Assembly (NCBI GenBank): GCA_004102645.1
Contig: CP034928.1
Location: 1,612,001-1,676,000 of the forward strand
Direction: 5' to 3'
Length of the DNA stretch: 64,000 bases
Source of the DNA: Candidatus Bipolaricaulis sibiricus
GTDB lineage: Bacteria > Bipolaricaulota > Bipolaricaulia > Bipolaricaulales > Bipolaricaulaceae
Positions within the stretch are counted from its first letter, which is position 1. Every line of letters begins with the position of its first letter. Positions 22,801-50,579 of this stretch are shown here, piece after piece. Made by a program: the position numbers and the translations under genes. The notes beneath the pieces are model-generated. The model did no database searches and was not told the DNA's origin. It was given only the letters and a program-made list of their open reading frames with translations.

Positions 22801-23579
22801 GCCCGTGGGATGACCTGCGACTTGGGTTTCGAGTCACCCACTACCCAGCATCGGGCTCGCCCCCTGCCCCGTATTTTCTCCACACCCTGACCCTGAGCAC
22901 GCGCGATCTGTCGGTCACCCTGCGCGGAGAGGAGCGCGCGGGGCTGATGTTCAAGGATGCTTCGGTCAGCGTGTTCGGCATGCCCATCTGTTGCGGAATC
23001 ACAGCCCAAGGGACCTTCTCCTTCACCAAGGCGGGGTTCTCCCACGCTCAGGTAGCCCTGACCCAGCTACCCTTCTTCTGCTGCGGTTTGACCATCGACA
23101 CCGCCGTCACGTTTACCGCGGACCGCAAGGCCATTGAGCTCTCTCCCCGGTGGAGTCCCCTCTGCGATGTGTGTCTTACGGTGTACGGCGACGTCCTGTG
23201 GGATCGGGACGCGTTTCATTGGAACGGGTTCGCCCTCTATGGGTACAAGATCCGGTGCTGTTTCGGGTCCTCGTGTTGTCCAGGAGGTGCCGGCGGGTAC
23301 GTGGAGATCCTGACAGCGTTTGATCCGAGCCAGGTCTCTGGTGATTTCCAGGGCGACGAGTTCGAGTACCTAAAGGTCCACGCCTGTCGCCCCGCCTGTT
23401 GCGGCGGAACGTACGCGTTCGATGTGATCGCGTTCTTCTCCCCGACGGGTCTGTTCGGGCTCTCGCGGATCAAGACCGCCCTCTCAGCTCCTCTCTTCCC
23501 GTCGTTCGTCCTGACCGCGACACTGGAAGCACAGGCGGGGGGCGCTGCGCTGAGCGTCGGCTGGGAGGTCAGGTTCTAG
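13839..23579 (+). CDS. Giant secreted repeat protein: DUF11 and CARDB domains, membrane segment, InlB-B repeat, barrel-like C-terminus
   Basis: A 3246-residue exported protein. Signal peptide: MRMCRALVFLFLVAVGCVAV. Many beta-sandwich repeats follow. DUF11 (conserved repeat) domains are seen at about nt 14314-14565, 16327-16610, 17150-17410, 17980-18235, 20136-20480, 20620-20960, 21121-21480 and 21604-21960, recognised by phrases such as WTITVENTGLGPIHNVVVTD. CARDB-like domains lie at 18390-20125 (ICECDGTNN motifs), including a 127-residue tandem duplicate. A hydrophobic segment followed by RFRK (about residues 2775-2798) looks like a C-terminal anchor, yet the frame continues with a second signal-like stretch (residues 2800-2825), an InlB-B repeat (about nt 22312-22530) and a Cys-rich beta-rich domain ending VGWEVRF. 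Start: GTG 13839 or ATG 13845, after GAGGGGAGGA. A cell-surface adhesion or envelope-layer role is likely. It may be two genes joined. Confidence 0.85.
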   Translation: MRMCRALVFLFLVAVGCVAVGQTVGLNGPTGMGRCEQAMFTVAFTAHASQTASAICFTVTLPNAGFVYVADSGQITLHDGEVVAAEPTPSGLNLVWDLDLLLGYPYALPPGETVTLEFAVGTGCGTISGTLSARVDYEQQGIPGYLTDSQPVEILPGAVQISKEPSVQDARVGDTVAWTITVENTGLGPIHNVVVTDTLGAGLAYVSATPDPDAVGGQVITWSLGSIPAGGQEQVQLSAEVVACKGLDNAADARFGCDDGSVCYDTAVDGGTATASVRLILQQPLLAWPPPTVEIPYCAQEGVEVVLPFTNVGEGPAYNVRWCVDCDPLVITNVGAGAYYEEGCFILEDPIPPNETFNLTFTVSVPDGWDWCAGVPSGLVICKIVYENVCGEKFYPPVQLGGFSTTYGPEGPPTLNVSLTGAEEVYICTEQDYTLSVSFSGLDACGNGGTSDISVVVDVPAGFTVLDAGGGDWTPGSDGTGGTISWTIPPTSPLSTTIRLRAPDSQQCHQVATLSATATAYDCCGCAISATSSVPIAIECYQLASVIREASPSVQEKCAEITYTNTYTFADDGPEVYFTDLEFIAYAENAQKYVAGSLTITIDGNPASPITVIDNTPGRSLVIQGIDDSGLVWGHTLVISYQLRLTPDSEPPSCPSSSTFYTWTTLNLDGKCAIGDECTEPCQVTEILAVTSATPTMSVSLTGLPDDFVDPCGTYDITLTLTKTSTFDPHDVVLTLENLNYYIVDLNSIQVSGVQPASPIPKDYGTYYEWEYGEAFVGQPNGAQSVLQFQVRKRCGPEVELRSEALYTDRCGGTCSVSDTEAPAYLRSPNLFVYKTPEVVYATQNEITWTIYVVNSGNGYAYEVWVDDVLGSGLKYESSSVTPSTGVTTTPHYDHLGNSINGVSWHIDAMTPGEQRVITLTARMVACSDLWDEVTTSLGCGGEDCLPPVSDDSTVLIPPTQLVATSSTTSPIATCTEQKALIRIRNAGDPAVYELVVREALPPGIEYVAGTTRWRKGSGSWQSGSDPTFSGDIWSGYTLEWTETEVPGLAELRSRQTLEIEFGIRALCNFTGGNLGGQVGYLNVCGEPGSLPVGTFRLDARQPSLSVNKVQTSPMGPVDCDSLITWRIDVTNTSDIPIPYVWVEDELGSAFEYVSSTGGIDGGYGSGSTATWVIENLAPGATAQLTITARHVFCGDLTNTVSAWWGCGSDSDGSSDTMDADCLTDIPATKMITASRNPTVSLSMNLDPALIPACEKSTLTLTLHNPSTASAAAVDVRISLPSGLSYVLGTTRIDCGGGFVPAGDPVESGGYLYWYDPVDQGSNLCDAIPQGGSVSLQFDVQANCYITAGSLGITVYYYDCCYSTQFQRSSSPTVQPALPVLTVTKTPDSVALDCHDPNSTVTWTITVTNTGAAQADWVRVEDTLGSSFVYVDSNPGATQIDGYTYAWEFGPLAPGESTNLSITAHLTRPSETCSAGPRTNTVRATWGCGTPDGDPTTPEGCASGIWVQDTALVTISDLYLAPSDIQPVLTCVADGNYQGRIQVRVRNQGDAQVTEDFRLTLTEAQTGWSVTGYFYQDFGGTLPINSGSSRTIWVENWPVSCDTCTYQFVIQLDSADEICECREGNNQNSRTWTITIPDITVRRETLALVCAGDGQVRISGTVTLGNEGCGSNLTADVPMRFVLHDGTGCSGTVLHQWTETFSNVNIPAGGEQTFDVSHTFSLDLCAEASGCTVSLFIEADYTDSICECDGTNNTFCTEFNIDIPDVVVTHENLALTCAGDGQVRISGTVTLGNEGCGDNLTANVPVRLTLYDQAGCNGTVLHQWTATFSSVNIPAGGEQSFDVTHTFPLDLCAEASGCTVSLLIEADYTGSICECDGTNNTLCTSFPVEIPDLAVVTVEPTVPDSCSPGQVAVTVANVGCVESPAGTVVRITGDATGETDLPSIPAGQEITVTVYLNEVLPCGTHQVTATVDPVGTVCECSSENNSQEAEFTVVDPDLTVSELTVECQGDGSFAVSAAVQNVGTEAAPPTTVRIYVEVALFNTVDIPPLAIGGSYTVNYVTPRIKCGEAHLFRLVVDENNVICECDEGNNEAQATASCGCPALVTQKEIAQITRGGIPIDPSLPIQAGDVITYRLAVQNVGEGKAFNVDISDTLPSEFLYISGTTQASWPSGTYSSNPSGAPGPSLFWDTSAELWPSETLVLEFQAVVTNAVVQGEIYTNWMYTTGEEGDGSSIPPDMSATVPADDDPYDCSSVSHEAAAIPALSVDKEIADVIRNGVSIWPTNTVEPGDLIHWRFTIRNIGMGTAYDVNFTDELPAGLVYVEGTYEVDDPPQAGSLGISVGSTGHLVADISATINGGGTLTADFFTYVTSAVQQGVALDNYAGTTGKDGYNTPIPAENPQADDTSDDDPDDLDPDDTGFATIGVAEPALALEKEIIDVLRGGVSIWPTPIVLWGDVIVYQVTVKNVGLGTAYDVDLTDELPLGLAYDTSYGDGTYTVDNPAASGSLGIPAGATGKIVADISATVAGGGTLVAVYRAQVTPDAVPGVYVTNLARVTGRDGAKTPIPDFNLYVNDTYPDQDSTTIRVGAPALVTNKAYYCEPCDPCAPESGDCDPCLEEPIEVSVGSTVGFQLVVANVGYSPAYDIMVEDFLPAGLVYVEKSAVVRWSGGTVQVEPTGSPGPVLTWVTGQTLGPGERLVITFDALVTVDASVGTEVHNLMFASGVDTFSTPIPADSSSFVPQDDDPDDRSALKLIVRAGPIGTAPPITGTASAARAAGGWAALGLVALGGLLALRFRKIIVARVLWLGVLVFLILAGWGADSHGATHTIVLTSDPLRGGTVFGAGQYETGERVTLTALPSRGFVFVAWFEDEENVSSSPVLEFIADRDRTLVARFQPSLEFVGIIGLGQGRLALLPTVALDTGRVEIRPRFLFRTTPWDLRFVAAFAGENWTDAQVHLTGSWEKLRFGGGMMFNPAGPAYRSAYFMISGPWDDLRLGFRVTHYPASGSPPAPYFLHTLTLSTRDLSVTLRGEERAGLMFKDASVSVFGMPICCGITAQGTFSFTKAGFSHAQVALTQLPFFCCGLTIDTAVTFTADRKAIELSPRWSPLCDVCLTVYGDVLWDRDAFHWNGFALYGYKIRCCFGSSCCPGGAGGYVEILTAFDPSQVSGDFQGDEFEYLKVHACRPACCGGTYAFDVIAFFSPTGLFGLSRIKTALSAPLFPSFVLTATLEAQAGGAALSVGWEVRF
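18774..19535 (+). repeat. Tandem 381-bp duplication inside the giant gene (two CARDB units)
   Basis: Two adjacent 381-bp units (18774-19154 and 19155-19535) encode 127-residue copies. They share long identical protein stretches, for example CAGDGQVRISGTVTLGNEGC, and near-identical DNA across 18911-19090 versus 19292-19471. The high nucleotide identity relative to the other repeats in the gene points to a recent in-frame duplication. Confidence 0.85.
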
Positions 23580-31925: not shown

Positions 31926-32282
31926 TGGTGGAGGTGGGGGGAGTCGAACCCCCGTCCGAAAACCCCTCGGCTTCGGCTTCTACAAGCTTAGCCCGCGTTC
32001 TTGTTCTCGGGCGTCACGCTCCCACGGGCGGGATCGCTCGGCCCCCAGCCTCGTTGAGTTTCGTCCAGCCGGCCCAAGGCCAGCCACCTGGACTAGCCCG
32101 TCTTGTCGACGCCCGGCGGCACCCCACGGGCGGGGGAACCCCAGACGGCCTACGCCTAGTTCAGGGCGTAAGCAGGAACAGTTGCGTAGTCGGCATTTGT
32201 TTGCCGTTCCGCCGGATTTAGGAGGAGACGGCCCTCCGCTTGCTGCCTGGCCTCGGTGTTCCCGTCGAGACCGGTCACCCCC
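31926..32282 (-). ncRNA. ssrA: Transfer-messenger RNA (tmRNA)
   Basis: A one-piece tmRNA of about 357 nt that rescues stalled ribosomes with SmpB. 5' end: GGGGGTGACCGGTCTCGACG. 3' end: TTTTCGGACGGGGGTTCGAC, then CCCCCCACCTCCACCA with encoded CCA; GGGGGTG pairs with CACCTCC. The tag frame that ends in two in-frame TAG codons reads NADYATVPAYALN at its end (around 32195-32156). A plausible resume codon is GCG at 32212, giving AERQ before TNADY, but the resume codon is not certain. Helices and pseudoknots were not modelled. Confidence 0.95.
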
Positions 32283-32292
32283 AAGCTCCTGG

Positions 32293-32298
32293 ATTATA
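32293..32298 (-). promoter_or_regulatory. -10 element of the tmRNA promoter
   Basis: A perfect TATAAT on the minus strand, 10 bases before the mature tmRNA 5' end at 32282. No convincing -35 hexamer is visible at the right spacing, so it may rely on upstream or extended elements. It lies in the 38-base gap between ssrA and the divergent comEC start. Confidence 0.5.
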
Positions 32299-32320
32299 CT
32301 CCCTGCGGAGGCGATGGCCA

Positions 32321-33853
32321 GTGGGACGAGCTCTTCTCCCCGGACTCGGGGCGGCGCTCGGGTTCGGGATCGCGTTCGGCTACCTTCTCACCCCCGGCCT
32401 CTCTGCGATGGCTGCAGCGGGAGGGGCCCTGATCGTCGCGGCAGCGCGGCGATCCCCCATCGCCCTGTGGGTGGCAGCGTGTGCGCTTGGCGCCGGTCTT
32501 GCCGTTCCAGAGACCCTTCCTTCCCACTACGCCTTCCAGCTCCCCAACCTCCGCGAGGTTACGGGCCGGGTTCTCGACATCCCCGAGCCACGCACGAAGA
32601 ACGTCTCGTTCACCCTCTCCGTGGACACCCTTGGGGTGGACCTGCTGGCGTACGTCCCCCGTCATCCAGCAGTCGGACCTGGGGACCAGGTAAAGGTCAT
32701 CGGCCGATGGGGACTGCCTCAGCCGGAAGGATGGCGGGCGGGTCTGGCCCGCCGCGGGATCCACGGGCTGTTCTGGGCAGACGAGGTTGAGGTTCTTGCA
32801 CCGGGTCCGCCCTCGCTCGCCCGCTGGGCGTCCCACGTTCGACAGACCCTGCTTAGTCACCTGTACCGGGTGGCCCCAGAGGGGACCGAGCGTGCTTCCC
32901 CCGCACTGGACCTGCTTGCTGCGCTGCTCCTCGGAGCGCGGGGCATGTTCCCAAGCGAGGAACAACAGGCGTTCCGGACAGCTGGTGTGGCCCACGTCCT
33001 CGCTCTGTCCGGCCTTCACGTCGGGATACTCGTCGCCGGTGGATGGTGGCTCCTCGGCCTGGTGAGAGTACGCCCAGCGTGGCGGTACCTCGTCCTGGTC
33101 CCAGCGGTCGGGTTCTACGTGCTCGTCGGTGGAGCACGGGTATCGCTGATCCGGGCAGCGATCATGTTCGCAGTGCTTGGCTTGTTCTGGCTTCTGCTGG
33201 AGCGAGGGTGGGTTCTGCGTAGATGGCTCGATCCTGTCCAGGGGCTTGCGCTGGCGGCAACCGTCGTCCTCCTCGTCTGGCCATGGTCCGCTCTCGACAC
33301 AGGTTTTCAGCTGTCGTTCCTTGCCACAGGGGGGATCGTCGTACTCCTTCCCGGTTGGACGGGGTCCGACCTGCGCCGCCGCCTTCCGGGTTGGACCCGA
33401 AGGGCTGCGGACCTTCTCGCGGTGACCCTGTGTGCCCAGGCGGGGGCCGTTCCCGTCATCGGGACCGTCTTCGGCCACGTGTCGCCGTACGGGATCCTGG
33501 CAAACGTCGTCCTCGTCCCGTGGACCGGCCTCCTCCTCTGGGGCGGGATTCTCGTCATCGCGCTTGCCGCGCTCCCGATCTCGCTTCCACTGACGTTCCT
33601 CGTCGAGGCCGTGCTCGTCGGTCCCTACTTGGCCATCGTCCAATGGGTGTCGGGGCTCCCCGGGGCCTCGCTCGTCGTCGGTCCGGGGTTTGGCGCGTGG
33701 TGCCTGTTGGCCGCGCTGGGCATTCTGCTCCTGCGTGTGATCGCGGAGGAGCCCGGTAGCCCGTGTGCGAGCCCGTCGCGTTGCCGCGGGCCGCGCGGAG
33801 AAGACCCACTCCGTGCGAAACGCGTGGCACCTCGTTCGCCCTCGGTGGGTTGA
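32321..33853 (+). CDS. comEC: ComEC/Rec2-family DNA uptake channel protein, short form
   Basis: A 510-residue inner-membrane protein of the ComEC family, which moves single-stranded DNA across the membrane during transformation. The N-terminus has several hydrophobic segments, then the OB-like DUF4131 region (REVTGRVLDIPEPRTKNVSF, GDQVKVIGRWGLPQP). The competence domain follows with the hallmarks LLAALLLGARGMFPSEEQQA, FRTAGVAHVLALSGLHVGIL, GGARVSLIRAAIMFAV and LSFLATGGIVVLLP. The C-terminal metallo-beta-lactamase domain of long ComEC proteins is absent; the frame ends in a basic tail. Start: GTG at 32321 with GGAGG upstream; longer frames would overlap tmRNA. dprA lies 1.8 kb away. Confidence 0.9.
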   Translation: MGRALLPGLGAALGFGIAFGYLLTPGLSAMAAAGGALIVAAARRSPIALWVAACALGAGLAVPETLPSHYAFQLPNLREVTGRVLDIPEPRTKNVSFTLSVDTLGVDLLAYVPRHPAVGPGDQVKVIGRWGLPQPEGWRAGLARRGIHGLFWADEVEVLAPGPPSLARWASHVRQTLLSHLYRVAPEGTERASPALDLLAALLLGARGMFPSEEQQAFRTAGVAHVLALSGLHVGILVAGGWWLLGLVRVRPAWRYLVLVPAVGFYVLVGGARVSLIRAAIMFAVLGLFWLLLERGWVLRRWLDPVQGLALAATVVLLVWPWSALDTGFQLSFLATGGIVVLLPGWTGSDLRRRLPGWTRRAADLLAVTLCAQAGAVPVIGTVFGHVSPYGILANVVLVPWTGLLLWGGILVIALAALPISLPLTFLVEAVLVGPYLAIVQWVSGLPGASLVVGPGFGAWCLLAALGILLLRVIAEEPGSPCASPSRCRGPRGEDPLRAKRVAPRSPSVG

Positions 33854-34617: not shown

Positions 34618-35588
34618 AATCGGATCGTGTTGTCGCGCGAGGTCGTCACCACCCGAGCTCCGTCGGGAAAGACGATGAGACCCCAGATGCTGTCGCTATG
34701 CCCGGCGTGCTCGGAGACCATCGCCCGCGAGCCAACATCCCACACCTCCAACCGGTTCGAGAACCCACCGCAGAAGATTCGCTTACCGTCGGGAGAGAAG
34801 GCCATCACGTACAATGAACTCGCTCGCCCGCCACTGACCCTCTCCGCACGCAGCCGCACCGCCTCCTCCCAGGTGTCGGTGCGGTAGAGGCGGATCTCTC
34901 CAGGGTTGTTGACGCACCCCAGGAACTGCCCATCGGGGGAAAACGTGACGAAGTACACGTTGATGCCGGCTTGGATCGGATCCCTACGCAGGCGCAACGA
35001 GTCCACGTCCCAGATCCGCACGTACCCATCGCATCCGCTCGTGGCCAGCGTGCGGCTGTCGGGGGAGAAGGTCACGCACCGCACCCACCCCATGTGTGCC
35101 CGGTCCTTGTTCTCGGCATCCACGAGTCGGGGCTCGATGAACAACCCGACCTCGATCCATGTCGCGGTATCCCACAGGCGGACCGTGCCGTCGAACGCCC
35201 CCGACGCCAGAAGCGTCCCGTCGGGCGAGAAAGCCACCGACCACACAGAGAACCGGTGCGCGTATTTCTTGAACACGAGCTGCCCCGAGGCGATCTCCCA
35301 CACGATGAGATGGCCGTCCTTGTCGCCCGCGGCGACGAACCGGCCGTTGGGAGACACAGCAAGCGAGACGACGAACGCCTCTGCTCCTCGCAGCGACTGA
35401 ACGACCCGGCTCGGGCTCGCCCACGACCGGATTTCGACGGTGCGTCCCTGCCCCACGGCGAACGTGTCCGCGCCCACCCGCGCCAAGGCGTGTTCGTCGA
35501 ACGGCCCTTCGATCCCACCCTGGGCAGCCGCCGTGATCCCAAACGCCCCGCACACAGTCAAGACCGAGACCGCCACCCATCGCATCAT
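34599..35588 (-). CDS. Secreted WD40-repeat protein
   Basis: A 329-residue protein with a signal peptide (RWVAVSVLTVCGAFGITAAA) and about six to seven WD40 blades. These are visible as recurring VAFSPDGTLLASGAFDGTVR and VRLWDT, and similar phrases such as VTFSPDSRTLATSGCDGYVR and IRLWTIGN at the end. It probably folds as one seven-bladed propeller used for protein binding outside the cytoplasmic membrane. Function unknown. Start: the first of two ATG codons (35588), with AGGAGG six bases upstream. The next gene downstream is the uracil-DNA glycosylase, overlapping by 19 bases; no functional link is obvious. Confidence 0.88.
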   Translation of the reverse strand: MMRWVAVSVLTVCGAFGITAAAQGGIEGPFDEHALARVGADTFAVGQGRTVEIRSWASPSRVVQSLRGAEAFVVSLAVSPNGRFVAAGDKDGHLIVWEIASGQLVFKKYAHRFSVWSVAFSPDGTLLASGAFDGTVRLWDTATWIEVGLFIEPRLVDAENKDRAHMGWVRCVTFSPDSRTLATSGCDGYVRIWDVDSLRLRRDPIQAGINVYFVTFSPDGQFLGCVNNPGEIRLYRTDTWEEAVRLRAERVSGGRASSLYVMAFSPDGKRIFCGGFSNRLEVWDVGSRAMVSEHAGHSDSIWGLIVFPDGARVVTTSRDNTIRLWTIGN

Positions 35589-35651
35589 CGCTGGCCTCCT
35601 AGGAGGCCATCCTACCCCATCCACACCAGATCCGGCTACCATCATCGGGCG

Positions 35652-36713
35652 ATGGACCGCACGCTGGCCTGGGTGGGCCTGAACCTGCTCCCGTCCCTCA
35701 CCCCGCGCCGCCGGGACCTCCTGGTGCGGAGGTGCGGAGGCCCGGTGGAGGGATGGCAGTGCCTGGAGGGACCCCTCCCCGACGATCTCCAGGAGGCGAT
35801 CGGCGCCAAGGTTCTCTCCGAGTACAGGAGTGCCGATCCGGAACGGGAGCTGGACCCGGCACGCCGCCGTGGGGCGCGGGTGATCACGGTGGACGACGCC
35901 GACTATCCCCCACCCCTGCGCGCCATCCCTGCAGCCCCACCAGTTCTCTACGTGCTCGGGAGCTGGGAGCCCGCCGATGTCCGGGCGGTGGCGGTCGTCG
36001 GCACCCGCCGATGCACGAGCTACGGGCGGCTCGTGGCGCGGAAGCTGGGGGCAGAGCTGGCCGCTCGCGGTGTCACCGTTGTGTCGGGACTCGCCCCGGG
36101 GATCGATGCCGCAGCCCACGATGGAGCGTTGACCGCTGGACGCACGGTGGCTGTCCTCGGGACCGGCTTGGGGAACCCGTACCCAGCAGGGAGCGAAGGG
36201 CGGATCGAGGGGATCGCTTCCCGCGGGGCCGTCATATCCGAGTTCCCCTGGACCACACGCGGATCGCAGTGGACGTTCCCCCGTCGAAACCGCATCATCG
36301 CTGGCCTGTCCCAACTCGTGGTCGTGGTAGAGGCGCCAGAGCGATCAGGCGCTCTCATCACGGTGGACTACGCCCTCGCTCAGGGCAAGGACGTCCTCGC
36401 CGTACCAGGCCCCATCACGTCCGAGGCCTCGATGGGCTCGAACCGGCTGATCCAAGATGGGGCTAGACCCGTTCTCTGCGCTGGGGACATCTTGTCCGAG
36501 CTGGGGATGCCATCGTTGCCCCTTGCCTCCCCGCCGGCCCTCAAGCCCGAGGCCCAACGGGTGTACGACCTCCTGTCCCACGAGCCCCTCGACCCATCCG
36601 AGATGGTTGCCCAAACAGGCCTGTCACACGCAACGGTCGCCCGGATCTTGCTCGACCTCGTCCTGTCCGGGCACGTCCACGAGCTGCCAGGCCGCAAGTA
36701 CGTTCGGGCGTGA
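35652..36713 (+). CDS. dprA: DNA-processing protein DprA
   Basis: A 353-residue protein that binds incoming single-stranded DNA and loads RecA during transformation. The N-terminal helical/HhH part is weak. The Rossmann-like DprA core (about 75-285) has ADYPPPLRAIPAAPPVLYVLG, VAVVGTRRCTSYGRLVARKL, TVVSGLAPGIDAAAHDGAL, AVLGTGLGNPYP, SQWTFPRRNRIIAGLSQLVV and GSNRLIQDGARPV. A C-terminal winged-helix domain follows (LDPSEMVAQTGLSHATVARIL). Start: ATG at 35652, divergent from the WD40 gene by 63 bases. With comEC it points to a transformation capacity. Confidence 0.96.
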   Translation: MDRTLAWVGLNLLPSLTPRRRDLLVRRCGGPVEGWQCLEGPLPDDLQEAIGAKVLSEYRSADPERELDPARRRGARVITVDDADYPPPLRAIPAAPPVLYVLGSWEPADVRAVAVVGTRRCTSYGRLVARKLGAELAARGVTVVSGLAPGIDAAAHDGALTAGRTVAVLGTGLGNPYPAGSEGRIEGIASRGAVISEFPWTTRGSQWTFPRRNRIIAGLSQLVVVVEAPERSGALITVDYALAQGKDVLAVPGPITSEASMGSNRLIQDGARPVLCAGDILSELGMPSLPLASPPALKPEAQRVYDLLSHEPLDPSEMVAQTGLSHATVARILLDLVLSGHVHELPGRKYVRA

Positions 36714-36845: not shown

Positions 36846-38954
36846 ATGAGGAAAACCCTGTTGTTCGTGGTATGGTGTGCCCTCGCTCTGACGGCGTGGG
36901 CGGCCCCGCAGCGGCTGGCGTTCATCCTTGACGCATCGGACTCGATGAACATCGGCCTTGACGGCGGCCCCACCCGGTTCGCGTGGGCCAAGGAGGCCTT
37001 GACGTTGGTTCTAGACGACCTCTCGGACGAGACGTCGTTTGCGGTCGCGGTGTTCGGCCACCGGATACCGAAGACGCAGGAGCCAGCAACGTGCCGTGAC
37101 ATCGAACTCATCGCGTCCTTGGGAACCTACGGCGCAGTGGATCGCGCCGTACTCAAGGCCACGATCGCCAACCTGGTTGCGATGGGGAAGACCCCGCTCG
37201 CCGAGTCGCTCCGATTCATTGCAGGAAGAGTCCCCGCACCGGCGCGCATTGTTCTGCTTACCGACGGAGGGGAGACGTGCGGGGGAGACCCGGTCGCGGA
37301 GGCGCGGCGCCTGTGCGCGTTGGGGTACACGGTAGATGTGGTTGGCTTGGCCCTCACCCCCGCTGATGAGCAGGCACTCCGCGCGATCGCTGCAGCGGGG
37401 TGTGGCCAGTTTATCGTCGTAGCAGAACCGAAAGATCTTGTTCCGTTGTTCCGTGAATTTGTGATCCCGACGCCTCCGATTCCGGCGCCAACGATTCCGC
37501 ACTGCCTCGCCACGTACAAGGTTGACCCCGCCATCGTCGCCCTGCTCCTGAAGCATCTTCCCTATGCACCATGCACGGACCCGATGTGGCACGTGATCCT
37601 GTGCTTCCTCGAGCAGAACCCACCCGCCAAGATCATCGTCGGAACTGAAGGTGATGACGTCCTGTTCGGAACGCCGGGCAACGACCTGATCCTCGGCCTG
37701 GGTGGCGACGATCAGATCTTCGGGTTCGCCGGGAACGATCTCCTCATCGGCGGCCCGGGGAACGACCTCATCCAGGGAGGCGATGGCGACGACCTCATTC
37801 TGGGTGGACCAGGCAATGACCTCCTGTTCGGCGGTGCCGGCGACGACATGATCTACGGTGAGGATGGCGACGACCGGATCGAGGGCGAGGCCGGGAACGA
37901 CAAGCTGTTCGGCGGTCCGGGCAACGACATCATCCTCGGCGGTCCTGGCTGCAACGTGATCGACGGTGGCCCCGGGAAGAACTTCATCTACGATGAGGGA
38001 ACGTGCGCCCCGCGGCCACTGGCTCCCGACTGCACGCCAGTCTGCGCGCCGCCTGTTCCCGCGACACCGAAGCCGACCATCTCCCCCACCTGCCAGGTCG
38101 CCCCGGAGATCAAGACGGTCGTCGAAGGAGGAAGCATTGTCCTGCGCGCAATCGTTCACGATCCCGACGGGGACCCGGTCCGGGTAACGTGGTCGGCTCC
38201 CAAGGGCCATTTCTCCGATCCACACGCGTTCGAGCCCACGTACTACGCGCCGTGGGTCAAGTCGTGCGATGGCGAACGGATCGAGATCACCCTCACAGCG
38301 GTCGACGCTTGCGGCGCGCAGGCAGTGGATAAGCTCGTTCTCCACGTGCTCAACGTGAACCATCCGCCAGTGGTGGACGCCGGGCCGGATCTCGCGGTGG
38401 ACGAGGGCGGCAAGATCAGGCTCCTTGCCTCGGCCTGTGACCCTGACGACGATGCGTTGTCCTTCCTCTGGACGATTGGTTGTGGCCGCGGATCGCTCGA
38501 CAACCCGCGGGCCCTTCAGCCGATCTACACAGCCCCGCTCACCTCGCGGTGTGAGGGAGAGACGGTCGAGCTCACCCTCACCGTGACCGACGCCTGCGGT
38601 GCGGTGGCCCAGGACACGGTGCGGATCCACGTGCGAAACCTGAACAAGCCGCCGTGGGCTGATGCCGGGCCCGACCTCCAGGTACCCGAGAAGGCGCAGA
38701 TCATGATCCTCGGCCAGGCCGGGGACCCCGACGGCGAGAAGCTCACCGTCACCTGGTGGGCGAGCGCGGGGACCCTTCTCAACGCCGACACCCTGTGCCC
38801 GATCTTCGTCGCTCCCGAGGTCGAGGGCTGTGACCACATGCTGGTTACGGTCACCCTGTGCGTCATGGATCCGTGCGGCGCTGTCGCCCAGGACTCGCTT
38901 GTGATCAAGGTCCTCAACGTGAACCGGCCGCCGCAGGTCAAGGCAGATCCGTAG
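36846..38954 (+). CDS. Secreted VWA protein with RTX-like calcium-binding repeats and three Ig/PKD-like domains
   Basis: A 702-residue exported protein. Signal peptide: RKTLLFVVWCALALTAWA. VWA domain (about 22-205) with the MIDAS motif ILDASDSM (DxSxS) and TDGGETCGG. A 120-residue block at about nt 37640-37990 has at least a dozen GGxGxDxxx nonapeptides (GPGNDLILGG-like), the calcium-binding beta-roll of RTX proteins. Three homologous domains follow from about nt 38080 to the end, each with an Asp-Pro-Asp-(Gly/Asp) turn (DPDGDPVRVTW, DPDDDALSFLW, DPDGEKLTVTW) and a closing TLTVTDACGAVAQDTVRIHV-type strand. There is no membrane anchor. It probably acts at the cell surface in adhesion or metal-dependent binding. 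A strong terminator follows. Confidence 0.85.
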   Translation: MRKTLLFVVWCALALTAWAAPQRLAFILDASDSMNIGLDGGPTRFAWAKEALTLVLDDLSDETSFAVAVFGHRIPKTQEPATCRDIELIASLGTYGAVDRAVLKATIANLVAMGKTPLAESLRFIAGRVPAPARIVLLTDGGETCGGDPVAEARRLCALGYTVDVVGLALTPADEQALRAIAAAGCGQFIVVAEPKDLVPLFREFVIPTPPIPAPTIPHCLATYKVDPAIVALLLKHLPYAPCTDPMWHVILCFLEQNPPAKIIVGTEGDDVLFGTPGNDLILGLGGDDQIFGFAGNDLLIGGPGNDLIQGGDGDDLILGGPGNDLLFGGAGDDMIYGEDGDDRIEGEAGNDKLFGGPGNDIILGGPGCNVIDGGPGKNFIYDEGTCAPRPLAPDCTPVCAPPVPATPKPTISPTCQVAPEIKTVVEGGSIVLRAIVHDPDGDPVRVTWSAPKGHFSDPHAFEPTYYAPWVKSCDGERIEITLTAVDACGAQAVDKLVLHVLNVNHPPVVDAGPDLAVDEGGKIRLLASACDPDDDALSFLWTIGCGRGSLDNPRALQPIYTAPLTSRCEGETVELTLTVTDACGAVAQDTVRIHVRNLNKPPWADAGPDLQVPEKAQIMILGQAGDPDGEKLTVTWWASAGTLLNADTLCPIFVAPEVEGCDHMLVTVTLCVMDPCGAVAQDSLVIKVLNVNRPPQVKADP

Positions 38955-45342: not shown

Positions 45343-45630
45343 TCACGGGGCCGCCTGAGGCGGCCCCGTGTCTGTCGTCAGCAGGGGGGATCCGCCGATC
45401 GGGCGCGGTGCACCCCCGCCCCGATGCCGAGCAGCGTGCACAACACGACCCGCCAGGAAGTCGCGCACGTAGTCCGGCCAGACGAACGAGTAGAGCATCG
45501 CCCCGCTGCTCCAGAAGAAGCTCGAAGGGACAGGAACCGCAGGCCGCGGGACCGCCGGATGGGCCCCACCCGCTCCCAGGATCCCCTCGGGGTTGCCCAG
45601 GCTGGGTCGGCAGCGGTCAGGGATGCGCAC
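45343..45630 (-). other. Possible small membrane-protein gene or remnant
   Basis: The 299 bases between 45317 and 45617 hold no recognised gene. One minus-strand frame from a GTG at 45630 would give 95 residues with a hydrophobic patch, SSFFWSSGAMLYSFVWPDYV, then lose character. An adjacent frame continues with a hydrophobic RVVLCTLLGIGAGV, as if a membrane protein had been frameshifted near 45450. There is no Shine-Dalgarno site, and the 3' end runs into the terminator hairpin. It could be a decayed gene following the Nif3-like gene, or chance. Confidence 0.2.
45344..45370. terminator. Terminator hairpin
   Basis: A 12-bp perfect stem, CACGGGGCCGCC / GGCGGCCCCGTG, with a TGA loop, 27 bases after the stop of the secreted-protein gene. 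Only a weak T-rich tail (TCTGTCGT) follows. The stem shares its core with the terminator at 38980-39008. Confidence 0.65.
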
Positions 45631-46474
45631 GCGACCGGCGGCAGGGGTCCGCAGCCGGAACCAGCCCGAGGGGGACAACCTCCAGGCCTCGCTCCCGCAG
45701 AGCATCCACAAACGGGTTGATCCCCAGGGAGTCGCTCGCAATGTGCCCGGTGACCACGAGGTTCTTCCCGCAAGCCCCATACTCTCGGGAGAGCTGCCGC
45801 GCCACAGCCGGCTGGCAGTGAATGTAGACCAGCGTGTCTATACCGTGGTCGAAGTACGCCTTGGCCACAGCGTACCCTCCGTTCGTCCCCGCTCCGTGGG
45901 CCACGGCCACCCGGCCCACGCGGTTTTCCTCCCGCCCCACAAGGCACTGGATGCGGGTGAGTGCGTTCCGGAACTCGCCGAATCGGTTGCAGAAGTGGGC
46001 AATGAGTTCAGCAACTGCGTCGCGGGGACTCAGCTCGCCTGCCGCTTCCGCCATCCGCCGTCGGCCGATCTCATCGAGCGGGGTGTGGATGTTCATGTAC
46101 GCGACTCCGAGAGCCCGGGCAAGGGAGGGCAGCCGGTCGTAGTTCCGGGTCTGTCCCACCACACGATCCTCGAACAACCTCTCTTCGACTGCCGCCTGCG
46201 CCACGTCCCGGGGGACGCCAACCCGCACCATCAGCTCCACATGGCGAACGAACACCTCGTCCATGTGCAGGACGGCCGTCCCCCCCGCCGGATGATGGGC
46301 CAGTGCGAGATCGAACCCCTGCTCTTTCGCCCACATGAGCTCCGGCCCCTCGAGATCGATCCCGACCAGGACCCGTTGGATCGCCCGGCCTGGGCAGTAG
46401 ATCGCCGTATCCGCAGGGACTTCAGTCAACCCTGCCATGCTGAGCGAGAGCTGCAGGATGTCTTCTGTGGTCAT
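45617..46474 (-). CDS. Second Nif3-family protein
   Basis: A 285-residue protein related to Nif3 (NGG1-interacting factor 3) but without the PII-like insertion of the longer copy at 9.7 kb. Metal-binding motifs are LALAHHPAGGTAVLHMDEVF near residue 60 and MNIHTPLDEIGRRRMAEAAG near 135, with VAVAHGAGTNGGYAVAKAYF and LVVTGHIASDSLGINPF in the C-terminal half. It is divergent enough that a different substrate is likely. I chose the ATG at 46474, preceded by AAAGGGGG; longer frames would overlap the divergent mini zinc-ribbon gene's promoter. The reaction of Nif3 proteins is unsettled. Confidence 0.8.
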   Translation of the reverse strand: MTTEDILQLSLSMAGLTEVPADTAIYCPGRAIQRVLVGIDLEGPELMWAKEQGFDLALAHHPAGGTAVLHMDEVFVRHVELMVRVGVPRDVAQAAVEERLFEDRVVGQTRNYDRLPSLARALGVAYMNIHTPLDEIGRRRMAEAAGELSPRDAVAELIAHFCNRFGEFRNALTRIQCLVGREENRVGRVAVAHGAGTNGGYAVAKAYFDHGIDTLVYIHCQPAVARQLSREYGACGKNLVVTGHIASDSLGINPFVDALRERGLEVVPLGLVPAADPCRRSRAHP

Positions 46475-46497
46475 CGTTCCCCCTTTGAAGGACGGGA

Positions 46498-46524
46498 TTG
46501 TACGGCTTCCTGGCCCGGTATAAT
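46498..46524 (+). promoter_or_regulatory. Promoter of the mini zinc-ribbon gene
   Basis: TATAAT at 46519-46524 is a perfect -10 element. TTGTAC at 46498-46503 is a possible -35 with a short 15-base spacer. The ATG of the small gene lies 22 bases downstream of the -10. Confidence 0.5.
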
Positions 46525-46546
46525 CCCCCCCTCGGGAGTGTGTGGG

Positions 46547-46657
46547 ATGCCCATATGGTTGTGCACGGGGTGCGGGCAAGAGATCCGTGGGGGCTCGCGC
46601 CCGAAGACCTGCCCGCACTGCGGCGCCCCAAGGGACAAGATCGAGCGGTCAGAGTAG
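46547..46657 (+). CDS. Rubredoxin-like mini zinc-ribbon protein
   Basis: A 36-residue protein, MPIWLCTGCGQEIRGGSRPK, ending TCPHCGAPRDKIERSE. The Cys-x-x-Cys-Gly ... Cys-Pro-x-Cys-Gly pattern with W three residues before the first Cys is that of the rubredoxin-like domain at the end of rubrerythrins, here as a stand-alone gene. It would bind one Zn or Fe. A good promoter (TATAAT) lies upstream, and GGGAGTGTGTGGG could serve as a weak ribosome site. Free-standing versions occur in anaerobes and archaea; the role is unknown. It is divergent from the second nif3 gene. Confidence 0.7.
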   Translation: MPIWLCTGCGQEIRGGSRPKTCPHCGAPRDKIERSE

Positions 46658-46709: not shown

Positions 46710-48404
46710 CTACTTGACCTCGACGATCCGGCCCTCGACCTCGGCGCGAATCGGGGTGTGCTGGCGCACGTAGTCGGCAAGCACGTCGGCATCCACGAAG
46801 GCGAGAACGACACTCTCCTTCGCGTTCCGGAACGACTCGAATCCGTCCCCGCCGCCCGCGAGGAAGTTGTTCGTGACAACCTTGTAGGTGGATGTCCTGC
46901 GAATGGGAGCGAATCCGTCTGCGGTAAGAACTTCGGCCGACACGATCCGTTGCCCCGCTGGGCGGGCGGGGTCCCACGTGAACCGCATCCCCGCAACATG
47001 AGGAAACCGACCCGCAACCTTCTCCACCTGAGAGACTCCGTTCTCAAGCGCCGCCAGAATCTGCTCGCCCGTAAGGGTGAGCACCACCAGATAGTTGCCA
47101 AACGGGAGAACCTCCAGCGCCTGGCCGAGCGTGATCTGTCCCATCGGGATGGACCCACGGATTCCCCCTCCGTTCTGAACGGCGATCTGGGCTCCAGCAG
47201 GGGCCGCCTTCCATAGCATCGCGTCGGCAATGAGGTTCCCAAGGTTCGTCTCCCGGGTTCGTACATGGCCACGTTCACCATCGAGGTCGACCTTCGTCTC
47301 CCCGATCACCTCGCCCTTCAACGCAGCGATCGGCTCGCGAAACACCGCGAGCTGCGCCTCGATCTGCGCGTTCATCGGCAACTTGTCCACGGGAATGAGC
47401 TCCCCCCTCCAGGACCTCAAGACGCCCCCGTCGTCGAAGGTCGCCTCCAACCAGCCAACGTGGAGGGCTCGCTCGCCTGCCTGGACGACCAGTGCTGGCA
47501 CCACAGCGTCCACAACCGAGATCCGGTCGCGGATACCGGCCAGTGTGGCACTGCCGATCCCGCTCACCTTCGTGATGTCCTCGATCGTCTGGAACGGGCC
47601 GTGGGTCTGGCGGTAGTCGATGATCCGCTGTGCCAACGCCGGACCGATTCCCCGCAGGGTCTGCAGCTCCTCGGATGTCGCGGTGTTGAGGTTGACGAGG
47701 GTTCGCTCCACCACAGCCGGATACGTGTCGGGCAGCGTGTGGGAGTGCCCCCCGACCACGATGTCGATGCCCGTCACCGAACGCGCGAGCTCGAGATCGC
47801 GCTCCCACCCCAGATGGCTGAGGGCCACGATCGCGTGAACCCCGAGCGCCGTCAGCTCGGCCACTGCTGTCCGGGCAGCGGCGAACGGATCGTGGATCTC
47901 GATGTTCGGTCCCGGGTTTGAACTCCACGACGTGCTCTCCGTGGTCAGGCCGAGAATGCCCACCCGGCCACCGCCCGCCTCGACAACGATGTAGGGGACG
48001 ATCCGCCCGTGGAGAAGGGGTTCCCCCGTGAAGTCGAAGTTGGCACAGAGGAGTGGGAAGCTCACCTGGTCGGCGAACTTGGCCAGACCCCGGGGGCCTT
48101 CGTTGAACTCATGGTTGCCCAACGCCATTGCCGTGAACCCCATCTGCTCCAGAACCCACGCCTCTGCCAGACCTTTGTGCACCGTGTAGTACAAGGTGCC
48201 CATCACTGCGTCCCCCGCGTGGAGGAGCAGGGCGTCGGGAACCTGAAGCCGGATCTCGTCGATCAGTGACGCCTGGCGGGCCATGTTCTCAAGCTGGGAA
48301 TGGGTATCGTTCGTGTGGAGAATGGTGACCGTCCAGTCCTGTGACCAGCCCCCCACAGCCACGCTGATGGCCACAGCCGCTAGCAGGAACATCGTTCTCC
48401 TCAT
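46710..48404 (-). CDS. Secreted 5'-nucleotidase/2',3'-cyclic phosphodiesterase (UshA family) with an inserted ComEA-like HhH domain
   Basis: A 564-residue exported protein. Signal peptide RRTMFLLAAVAISVAVGGWS. The calcineurin-like phosphatase domain (about 24-330) has ILHTNDTHSQ, LLHAGDAVMGT, ALGNHEFNEG, LSHLGWERD and VVGGHSHTLP, all the metal ligands. The 5'-nucleotidase C-terminal domain (about 345-555) has ETNLGNLIADAML, VQNGGGIRGSIPMG and FLAGGGDGF. Between GHSHTLPDTYP and LVVQAGERALHVG, residues 235-297 (nt 47514-47702) form a helix-hairpin-helix pair, VNLNTATSEELQTLRGIGPA then KVSGIGSATLAGIRDRI, close to ComEA. Start: ATG at 48404 with AAGGAGG. It would cleave extracellular nucleotides; the insertion could give DNA binding. 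Confidence 0.9.
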   Translation of the reverse strand: MRRTMFLLAAVAISVAVGGWSQDWTVTILHTNDTHSQLENMARQASLIDEIRLQVPDALLLHAGDAVMGTLYYTVHKGLAEAWVLEQMGFTAMALGNHEFNEGPRGLAKFADQVSFPLLCANFDFTGEPLLHGRIVPYIVVEAGGGRVGILGLTTESTSWSSNPGPNIEIHDPFAAARTAVAELTALGVHAIVALSHLGWERDLELARSVTGIDIVVGGHSHTLPDTYPAVVERTLVNLNTATSEELQTLRGIGPALAQRIIDYRQTHGPFQTIEDITKVSGIGSATLAGIRDRISVVDAVVPALVVQAGERALHVGWLEATFDDGGVLRSWRGELIPVDKLPMNAQIEAQLAVFREPIAALKGEVIGETKVDLDGERGHVRTRETNLGNLIADAMLWKAAPAGAQIAVQNGGGIRGSIPMGQITLGQALEVLPFGNYLVVLTLTGEQILAALENGVSQVEKVAGRFPHVAGMRFTWDPARPAGQRIVSAEVLTADGFAPIRRTSTYKVVTNNFLAGGGDGFESFRNAKESVVLAFVDADVLADYVRQHTPIRAEVEGRIVEVK

Positions 48405-48648: not shown

Positions 48649-49458
48649 CTAGAGACGCGGCACGAGAGCCGTGAGGAGGCGGCCCAGATCCGCGGCCCGA
48701 CGGCGTGAGGTCTCGATGACCTCGTCGTGGGACAGGGGCGCGGGAGATACCCCTGCAGCGAGGTTCGTGACACACGAAATCGCCAAGACCCTCATTCCGG
48801 CATGACGGGCAGCGATTGCCTCGGGGACAGTGGACATCCCCACGAGGTCCGCCCCCAGTGCGCGAAACGCGCGGATCTCGGCTGGCGTCTCGTACGACGG
48901 ACCCAGGGTTGCCAGGTACACCCCTTCCTTGAGGCCGATCCCCAGAGAACGCGCCACGTCTCGCGCCGTCCTGCGCAGCGCGGGATCGTAGACCGCTGTC
49001 ATGTCGGGGAAACGCGGTCCGAGGGGGTCCAGGTTTGCCCCCCGCAGTGGGTTGTCGCCGAGGAGGTTGACATGGTCGGAGAGGAGCACCAGATCCCCTG
49101 CCTCCAAACCATGGGCGATCCCTCCCGAGGCATTGGTGAGAACAAGCACGCGTACCCCGAGCCGCGCGTAGACCCGAACAGAAAAAACGACATCGGCTAG
49201 CGGGTATCCCTCATAGTGATGGACCCGACCCCGCTGGACAAGGACAGTTCGTCCGGAGACAACACCCACAGCCACCTCACCGGCGTGGCCCGCCACGGAC
49301 GGCACGGGAAAGCCCGAGATCTCGCGGAAGGATAGTACCCTCTCCTCCTCCAGGGGGAACACACTGGACAGCCCCGACCCCAAGACCACGGCCACCTCGG
49401 GCGTCCCCAGCCTGGAAAGCGCCTTCGCGGCCCGCTCGATGCGCTCCATCTCCTCCAT
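48649..49458 (-). CDS. Purine-nucleoside phosphorylase, family I trimeric type
   Basis: A 269-residue enzyme that splits purine nucleosides with phosphate to give base and (deoxy)ribose 1-phosphate. Motifs: VAVVLGSGLSSVFPLEEE (phosphate site), GRVHHYEGYPLADVVFSVRV, LVLTNASGGIAHGLEAGDLV, DHVNLLGDNPL, ATLGPSYETPAEIRAFRALG (base-site Glu), GADLVGMSTVPEAIAARHAG and SCVTNLAAG. Start: ATG at 49458 with AAGGAGA upstream; a longer frame to 49491 is less likely. It lies downstream of disA on the same strand with a 56-base gap, and next to the 5'-nucleotidase gene, which would supply nucleosides. Confidence 0.93.
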   Translation of the reverse strand: MEEMERIERAAKALSRLGTPEVAVVLGSGLSSVFPLEEERVLSFREISGFPVPSVAGHAGEVAVGVVSGRTVLVQRGRVHHYEGYPLADVVFSVRVYARLGVRVLVLTNASGGIAHGLEAGDLVLLSDHVNLLGDNPLRGANLDPLGPRFPDMTAVYDPALRRTARDVARSLGIGLKEGVYLATLGPSYETPAEIRAFRALGADLVGMSTVPEAIAARHAGMRVLAISCVTNLAAGVSPAPLSHDEVIETSRRRAADLGRLLTALVPRL

Positions 49459-49514
49459 TCTCTCTCCTTCGCTCGATACTCGAACGGTCAACCGTTCAAT
49501 CGGCAGCCGCAGTT

Positions 49515-50579
49515 CTAGAACCCATCCATCGTTCCCGTATACCCGTTCTTGAATCGCCCCAGGCCGAACTCGATCGCCCGAGCTCGTGCCTCCGCGATCC
49601 CCTTCACTCGGTCAAGCTGTCGCCGCGAGGCGCGATAGACCTTGTCCACAGTCCCAATCTCCTCGATCAGCCGTTCGATCACGGAGATCGGCAGACGGGG
49701 AACCTTGGACAGCAACCGATACCCTCGCGACGGAATGGGTTCCTCGACCTCCTGGTCGGTGGTGATCCCCAACGGGCGGAGGACGACGTCCGGACGTAGG
49801 GCGTCCTCGGCCGACAGGGCGAGGAGATCGTCGACGATCTCCTCGGCAGGACGAGGGTCCGACTTGAAGTCCCGCACCAGAAGCTCCATCTCCTCCCGCA
49901 CTCCGCGCATGAGGGCGGTGAGGTGGCGCTCCGGAAGCTCCCGATGCACCCCCAGTTCGACGAGCGTCCGCTCCACGTCCCGCTCCAGCTCCATCATGTA
50001 CAGGACGCGTTGGAGCACAGCCGCCACGTGAGACGGGAACACCCGCCGCTCGAACTCCAGCTGGGCAAGTTCGGTGAGAAGCTCCCGCAGCTCCCGCCGG
50101 TACCGGTCAAGGATCTGCAGCGCCTGGGAAACCCGAGCCAAGAGGGTCTGGATGTCCTGGAGCTCATACCGCCAGTCGCCGTGGAACAGGGTCACCTGCC
50201 GGCTGTCCTCTGAGATCGCGATCACGAGCCGTTCGATCTCCCGCGCCACTTGCTCCGCCACGCGGTGGCGGGTTCCCGTCTCCTGAGAGGGGATGGCTGG
50301 GCTGGGGATGAGATGAGCGTTGGCATAGAGAATGGTCTTCAGGTCTTCGTCCACAACCACGGCCCGGTCCATCTTCGACAGCTCGACAATCGCCTGGGGA
50401 GTGAACGGGGCGTTGAGCTCGAACCCCGCAGCGATGATCGGGCTAGCGGCGCTACGGTCAGCGACGACGATGAGCCCACCCCGGCCAAACTGCACGATGC
50501 GGTCCACCGCTTCCCGCAGAGGGGTGCCCGGCGCGGTGCGCCGCAAGAACTCCAGCCGCGGATCCTTCTTCCCGCCCAT
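49515..50579 (-). CDS. disA: DNA integrity scanning protein DisA, variant active site
   Basis: A 354-residue protein of the DisA family, an octameric diadenylate cyclase that scans DNA and makes c-di-AMP. The N-terminal DAC domain (about 1-145) has GGLIVVADRSA, PQAIVELSKM and ILYANAHLIP, and the conserved TRHR at 103-106. The usual DGA motif reads D71-R72-A73: Gly is replaced by Arg (codon CGG at 50366-50364), so cyclase activity may be altered or lost. A helical spine (about 150-285) and a C-terminal helix-hairpin-helix DNA-binding domain follow (SVIERLIEEIGTVDKVYRAS, RVKGIAEARA). It starts 1 base after the radA stop. Context with radA and clpC is classical. Confidence 0.93.
   Translation of the reverse strand: MGGKKDPRLEFLRRTAPGTPLREAVDRIVQFGRGGLIVVADRSAASPIIAAGFELNAPFTPQAIVELSKMDRAVVVDEDLKTILYANAHLIPSPAIPSQETGTRHRVAEQVAREIERLVIAISEDSRQVTLFHGDWRYELQDIQTLLARVSQALQILDRYRRELRELLTELAQLEFERRVFPSHVAAVLQRVLYMMELERDVERTLVELGVHRELPERHLTALMRGVREEMELLVRDFKSDPRPAEEIVDDLLALSAEDALRPDVVLRPLGITTDQEVEEPIPSRGYRLLSKVPRLPISVIERLIEEIGTVDKVYRASRRQLDRVKGIAEARARAIEFGLGRFKNGYTGTMDGF

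Follow-up and report, generated by a model that had tools for sequence, protein, structure and literature searches.

A 5'-nucleotidase of Candidatus Bipolaricaulis sibiricus, probably exported, contains a helix-hairpin-helix (HhH) domain of the ComEA type inserted in its interior. The gene lies in a window of 64,000 nucleotides, i.e., the whole stretch of DNA that was analysed (contig CP034928.1, positions 1,612,001 to 1,676,000). The reading that is held here, with some reserve, is that of a salvage 5'-nucleotidase in which a once-inserted HhH domain would serve for nucleic-acid tethering outside the cytoplasm. The features on which the analysis is based are collected in Table 1.

Table 1. 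Features of the nucleotidase-HhH gene and of its surroundings (positions are those of the window; residues are those of the nucleotidase-HhH protein).
Feature	Position	Strand	Basis
5'-nucleotidase, predicted secreted, with internal ComEA-type HhH domain, 564 aa	46710..48404	-	Ribosome site and signal peptide; Pfam; fold compared with 2z1a
N-terminal signal peptide (putative) MRRTMFLLAAVAISVAVGGWS, about residues 1-21, no lipobox	48342..48404	-	Read from sequence
Metallophosphoesterase domain, residues 27-223	47736..48326	-	Pfam Metallophos, E 4.6e-12; motifs compared across orthologues
Inserted ComEA-type (HhH)2 domain, residues 235-297	47514..47702	-	HHH_3, TIGR00426, AlphaFold2, Foldseek/VIA match to 8dss
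5'-nucleotidase C-terminal (substrate-binding) domain, residues 366-525	46830..47309	-	Pfam 5_nucleotid_C, E 2.2e-46
Purine nucleoside phosphorylase (PNP), immediately upstream	48649..49491	-	Pfam PNP_UDP_1, E 2.4e-54
DUF34/NIF3 protein, downstream, start uncertain	45617..46618	-	Pfam; adjoins the nucleotidase gene in most loci of the own genus, and also in g10
disA (diadenylate cyclase), upstream	49515..50579	-	Pfam DAC and DisA-linker
comEC, context, not linked	32240..33853	+	Pfam Competence PF03772, E 2e-51
Frame with dprA in its 3' half, not linked	34971..36713	+	Pfam DNA_processg_A, E 6.6e-72, residues 299-501

The Met start is at 48404 on the minus strand and a ribosome site, AAAGGAGG, is found just 5' of the gene. 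The protein begins with MRRTMFLLAAVAISVAVGGWSQ, which reads as a signal peptide without lipobox, and the hydrophobic N-terminus is kept in the orthologues. The protein is thus predicted from its sequence to be secreted or periplasmic, i.e., located outside the cytoplasm. Translation of the minus strand of the insert gives TLVNLNTATSEELQTLRGIGPALAQRIIDYRQTHGPFQTIEDITKVSGIGSATLAGIRDRISV, exactly the 63 residues 235-297. The insert and the rest of the gene have matching G+C and third-position G+C.

The enzyme part combines Metallophos and 5_nucleotid_C in one chain, which is the arrangement of the CD73/UshA type. Its fold matches that of the Thermus thermophilus 5'-nucleotidase 2z1a with Z 35.8 over 444 residues (434 bits by sequence), and CD73 and UshA are matched as well. 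The metal motifs of the window protein are HTNDTHS, HAGDAVMG, GNHEFN, SHLG and GGHSHT. The metal-ligand motifs (DxH, GD, GNHE, H, GHxH) are kept in the 21 fused proteins (i.e., nucleotidases with the HhH insert) upon 21, and both metal and substrate motifs are intact in this set; the window protein is predicted to act as a nucleotidase. It must be noted that GNHEFD, the motif of the His-Asp catalytic dyad, is replaced by GNHEFN in the window protein (residues 96-103, window 48096-48119, minus strand). Asn is found at this position in 13 fused proteins and Asp in the 8 others. GNHEFN is the form found in 2',3'-cyclic-nucleotide phosphodiesterases, and for this reason substrates other than 5'-NMPs may also be accepted.

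The nature of the insert is clear from profiles and from models. Pfam HHH_3 is detected in the whole window protein at residues 234-295, between Metallophos and 5_nucleotid_C, with an E-value of 2.9e-21. The isolated 63 residues obtain 81 bits with TIGR00426 (ComEA HhH repeat region; cut-off 53.1) and 82 bits with TIGR01259 (comE), i.e., below the cut-off of 152 bits of the latter model. The layout is not that of a whole ComEA either, which is short and membrane-anchored or periplasmic, has the HhH domain as its working part and, in Gram-positives, carries an oligomerisation domain as well; here the HhH domain is internal to an enzyme. Folded alone by AlphaFold2, the 63 residues give a pLDDT of 89 and four helices (13-16, 24-36, 43-48 and 54-63), i.e., two HhH motifs with a loop between them and no connector helix. 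The (HhH)2 of ComEA likewise has no connector helix (PMC9747964). The best structural match of this model is the Geobacillus stearothermophilus ComEA 8dss (rmsd 0.8 Å over 66 residues, 50% identity, Z 13.9), followed by Thermus 2duy (Z 11.8); PsbU and GspK also match and are ranked below these two. By sequence, the top solved-structure match of the HhH is EEPD1 (PDB 9yi2). A first-pass annotation of this DNA had placed at 47514-47702 an HhH domain very close to that of ComEA, inside a 5'-nucleotidase, and the profiles and the predicted fold bear this out.

The full protein was modelled by AlphaFold2 from the window protein, fused orthologues and ComEA HhH rows. The pLDDT is 74 overall and 83-96 within the insert. 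In this model the insert is flanked by strands 230-235 and 301-308 and expands the turn at the tip of a β-hairpin, shortly after GGHSHT (218-223). The first-pass annotation had also supposed that the last metal motif and the next strand normally follow each other directly. The insert does lie between them, but GGHSHT is separated from LVVQAGE by about 25 residues even without the insert.

The distribution of the fusion was determined in 100 genomes of the phylum. A match spanning the junction is found in 22 of the 40 genomes of the same family (Bipolaricaulaceae), belonging to five genera, and in none of the 60 phylum genomes outside the family; the survey of homologues proposed with the first annotation thus recovers the same insertion in relatives. 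The orthologues, at 57-79% identity, come from 11 genomes of the same genus and from four other genera, and the insert is at the same site in each. The nearest non-fused nucleotidases outside the family (L024-L026, at most 48% identity) pass directly from YPTIVE to the next strand. In a tree of the catalytic domains, calculated without the insert columns, a branch supported at 98/98 separates all 21 fused sequences from the others. The insert thus arose once, in an ancestor within Bipolaricaulaceae. In the tree of the HhH domains (67 columns, 141 rows, few columns resolved) most of the fused domains form one group (3 changes); the donor may have been the native ComEA or a foreign one.

Among the best 80 of 464 public relatives, obtained with narrow search patterns, 8 are fusions and all are close orthologues. 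The record titles are Acetothermia/Bipolaricaulota for six of them, «Thermotoga sp.» for one and «uncultured bacterium» for one. The record titled «Thermotoga sp.» (L033) matches Bipolaricaulota loci by sequence and gene order and is probably a misnamed MAG. Rare fusions in other phyla may exist beyond these best 80 relatives. No plasmid record has 80% of the junction covered at one place, and no relatives were found in viral contigs.

A misassembly or an annotation artefact, by which comEA and a nucleotidase gene would have been joined, was considered and rejected as having a negligible probability. The source genome is a single contig of 1.70 Mb, 99.83% complete, and it has a separate comEA elsewhere. 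Moreover, the identical junction occurs in 22 assemblies of five genera, i.e., in about 21 independent genomes besides this one, and in independently titled public MAGs. As a separate matter, two sequences (L035:3315-6782 and G006:C1:12966-16427) contain inverted copies of the nucleotidase, head to head. This is best explained by a palindromic artefact in the assembly of one MAG; in L035, PNP, disA and radA are also repeated in mirror order.

The mean pairwise identity between fused orthologues is 71% for the N domain, 65% for the HhH domain and 70% for the C domain, and dN/dS is well below 1 in all three for the pairs with printed values. The IG core of the first hairpin and the GIG core of the second hairpin are invariant in the 21 fused HhH domains; the same is true of the Arg that follows the first hairpin and of the Arg at the position of ComEA K199. 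From these invariant residues and dN/dS values it follows that the HhH domain is kept by selection, while being somewhat freer than the enzyme.

The gene neighbourhood points to nucleoside salvage. In the own genus, the gene order is clpC-radA-disA-PNP-nucleotidase-NIF3; PNP adjoins the nucleotidase in the loci of this genus, and only one of the sampled genera does not have it as a neighbour. The nucleotidase-HhH gene of genera g5, g8 and g12 has a PNP-family phosphorylase on one side and a PnrA-like (Bmp) substrate-binding protein on the other; after the latter come an ABC ATPase and, on a contig that is long enough (L040), two BPD_transp_2 permeases. PnrA-type systems are known for nucleoside import, as the Pfam name also indicates. 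The own genome has three Bmp genes. The neighbours in genus g10 (L017, L039) are instead a trypsin/PDZ protease, NIF3 and an MFS transporter. The own genome also encodes, near G000:C1 452780 (L183:67-1989, minus strand), a signal-bearing frame of 641 aa with SNase, then a purple-acid-phosphatase-like N domain and Metallophos. Nuclease, nucleotidase, nucleoside importer and phosphorylase genes taken together thus suggest a salvage of external nucleic acid. The scavenging of nucleotides, already proposed at first pass, is well supported by these conserved neighbours, i.e., PNP (all but one genus) and the PnrA-like importer (three genera).

Other genes of the region may be mentioned. Within the own genus, disA is conserved close to both PNP and the nucleotidase, but it was not seen next to the nucleotidase of the other fused genera. 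Elsewhere in the window, one uninterrupted reading frame, of 3246 aa, extends from 13839 to 23579 (plus strand), and the frame at 36846-38954 (plus strand), with VWA, RTX calcium-binding repeats and Ig/cadherin-like domains, may encode a large surface protein.

The proposed mechanism is as follows: (i) a ComEA-type (HhH)2 was inserted once at a surface β-hairpin tip of the metal-binding domain; (ii) the nucleotidase would remove phosphate from nucleotides outside the cytoplasm; (iii) the resulting nucleosides would enter via the PnrA/Bmp-type ABC importer and would then be split by purine nucleoside phosphorylase; (iv) the HhH would hold the nucleotidase on extracellular or periplasmic DNA or RNA and on the nucleotides freed by secreted nucleases, so that the product would be dephosphorylated near its site of release. 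Against tethering, it must be noted that a mononucleotide hydrolase needs no DNA binding for catalysis; the benefit of tethering it to DNA or RNA would presumably lie in this proximity.

Does the HhH domain bind nucleic acid? It most likely would do so without sequence preference, via the backbone of its two hairpins, and a DNA (or RNA) tethering of the nucleotidase is plausible in view of sequence and model, although the residue evidence is mixed. The residue K164 of ComEA (Bacillus subtilis numbering) is replaced by Leu, Ile or Tyr in the 21 fused proteins. K164 is the best conserved ComEA DNA-contact residue in the literature, and the equivalent mutation in G. stearothermophilus ComEA, K166A, abolishes DNA binding in vitro (PMC9747964). 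Nevertheless, this lysine is not universal and its loss is not decisive, since Leu is found at this position in the 49 native ComEA HhH domains of the phylum upon 49 (L001, L135-L182) and, by alignment, in Thermus 2duy. K193 is replaced by Ala or Val in 20 of the 21 fused proteins, while Lys is found in 29 of the 49 native ComEAs of the phylum. The mean net charge of the HhH is −0.1 for fused domains vs. −2.6 for native ComEAs, i.e., the fused ones are about neutral and the native ones more acidic; this speaks in favour of DNA binding, although net charge is weak evidence.

The loss of K164 and K193 agrees with another reading, which has a real but clearly smaller chance of being right, namely that the HhH is a protein-binding, surface-binding or oligomerisation module. 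Without any binding of nucleic acid, it would anchor the nucleotidase to an envelope partner, e.g., the nucleoside importer. The HhH domains of PsbU and GspK, both of which match the model, serve protein contacts; the partner operon is conserved; and there is a precedent in Pasteurella ComE1, whose HhH is reported to bind fibronectin. On the other hand, DNA-binding ComEA is a better match than GspK and PsbU by sequence as well as by structure, and the hairpin glycines, important for phosphate contacts, are invariant. Nucleic-acid binding could also go further than tethering: the HhH may dock the metal-dependent active site directly on nucleic-acid ends, in which case the enzyme would act on the polymer (as an end phosphatase or a 3'/5' exonucleotidase) in addition to free nucleotides. 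This is rather unlikely; if true, a competence domain spliced into a CD73-type enzyme would have given a DNA/RNA-feeding enzyme in one chain. It is more doubtful still that the HhH has no role other than stabilising the fold, as a neutral passenger that the hairpin tip tolerates. A surface β-turn easily tolerates an insertion and the HhH is slightly more variable than the enzyme, but no orthologue, even at 57% identity, is without it, its hairpins are invariant and its dN/dS is well below 1.

A role in natural DNA uptake was suggested at first pass by the vicinity of comEC and dprA; the fusion would then bind transforming DNA and dephosphorylate the nucleotides of the strand degraded on import. 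Both genes are indeed present in the window and the genome has a comEA; however, comEC and dprA are 10-13 kb from the nucleotidase gene (and not 12-15 kb as first estimated) and on the opposite strand. No com genes adjoin the nucleotidase in the fused loci examined. The search for a separate comEA, proposed as a check, was positive for the own genome and for the relatives examined. Neither PF00437 (pilus/T2SS ATPase) nor PF00263 (secretin) is found in the 99.83% complete, one-contig own genome, though the PF00437 control search gave a match in 14 known genomes upon 14; the classical transformation pilus is thus missing. The competence set of this genome is incomplete, i.e., comEC, dprA and comEA without these two families. 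The lack of com linkage, the separate comEA and the lack of pilus and secretin families lead to the conclusion that a coupling to uptake is very unlikely, and this part of the initial proposal is not supported.

Salvage with nucleic-acid tethering thus remains the preferred reading. A competence-type HhH has been recruited once into a nutrient-scavenging enzyme, inside a domain and not at an end, and five or more genera of an uncultured phylum have retained it. If it binds DNA or RNA, bacteria with small genomes would have in it a way to keep a soluble salvage enzyme concentrated where its food is. The ComEA-like HhH would then be separable from competence, and its presence alone would be no evidence of DNA uptake.

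The comparison with known systems shows what is shared and what differs. The T. thermophilus HB8 5'-nucleotidase (2z1a) and the CD73/UshA family have the same two-domain secreted fold and the same metal and substrate motifs. They have no HhH insert, and their Asp in GNHEF(D/N) is Asn in the window protein. The ComEA DNA-binding domain (8dss, 8dfk, 2duy) shares the atypical (HhH)2 without linker helix, whereas the window protein lacks the transmembrane anchor, the oligomerisation domain, K164 and K193 and has its HhH internal to an enzyme. In B. subtilis YhcR, and with staphylococcal nuclease and AdsA, nuclease and 5'-nucleotidase act together on extracellular DNA; the link is there an enzyme fusion or cooperation, whereas the window protein has a ComEA-type domain. 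EEPD1 (9yi2) also combines ComEA-like HhH pairs with a phosphoesterase domain, but it is a eukaryotic DNA-repair nuclease with two HhH domains on the N-terminal side and an EEP fold.

ComEA-derived HhH domains are known to be joined to EEP DNases and to metallo-beta-lactamase (H3TH) proteins, and in DNaseTA of Thioalkalivibrio sp. K90mix such a domain strengthens DNA binding and thereby permits activity at up to 4 M NaCl (PMC4777378), which is a precedent for the tethering proposed here. These proteins likewise associate a ComEA-derived HhH with a hydrolase of nucleic acid or of its products. In DNaseTA, however, the HhH is at the C-terminus of an EEP enzyme, whereas that of the window protein is inside a Metallophos plus 5_nucleotid_C enzyme without EEP domain. 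The main text of PMC4777378 nowhere uses the term «nucleotidase», hairpin domains are absent from a review on 5'-nucleotidases, and no description of the ComEA-HhH/nucleotidase architecture was found in a full-text literature search, most subscription journals being outside it. This is apparently a lineage-specific domain architecture, undescribed as far as searched, and a variant on the known fusions of ComEA-HhH with phosphoesterases. What is new in it is the partner of the CD73/UshA type, the internal position of the HhH and, within the data searched, the confinement to a single bacterial family.
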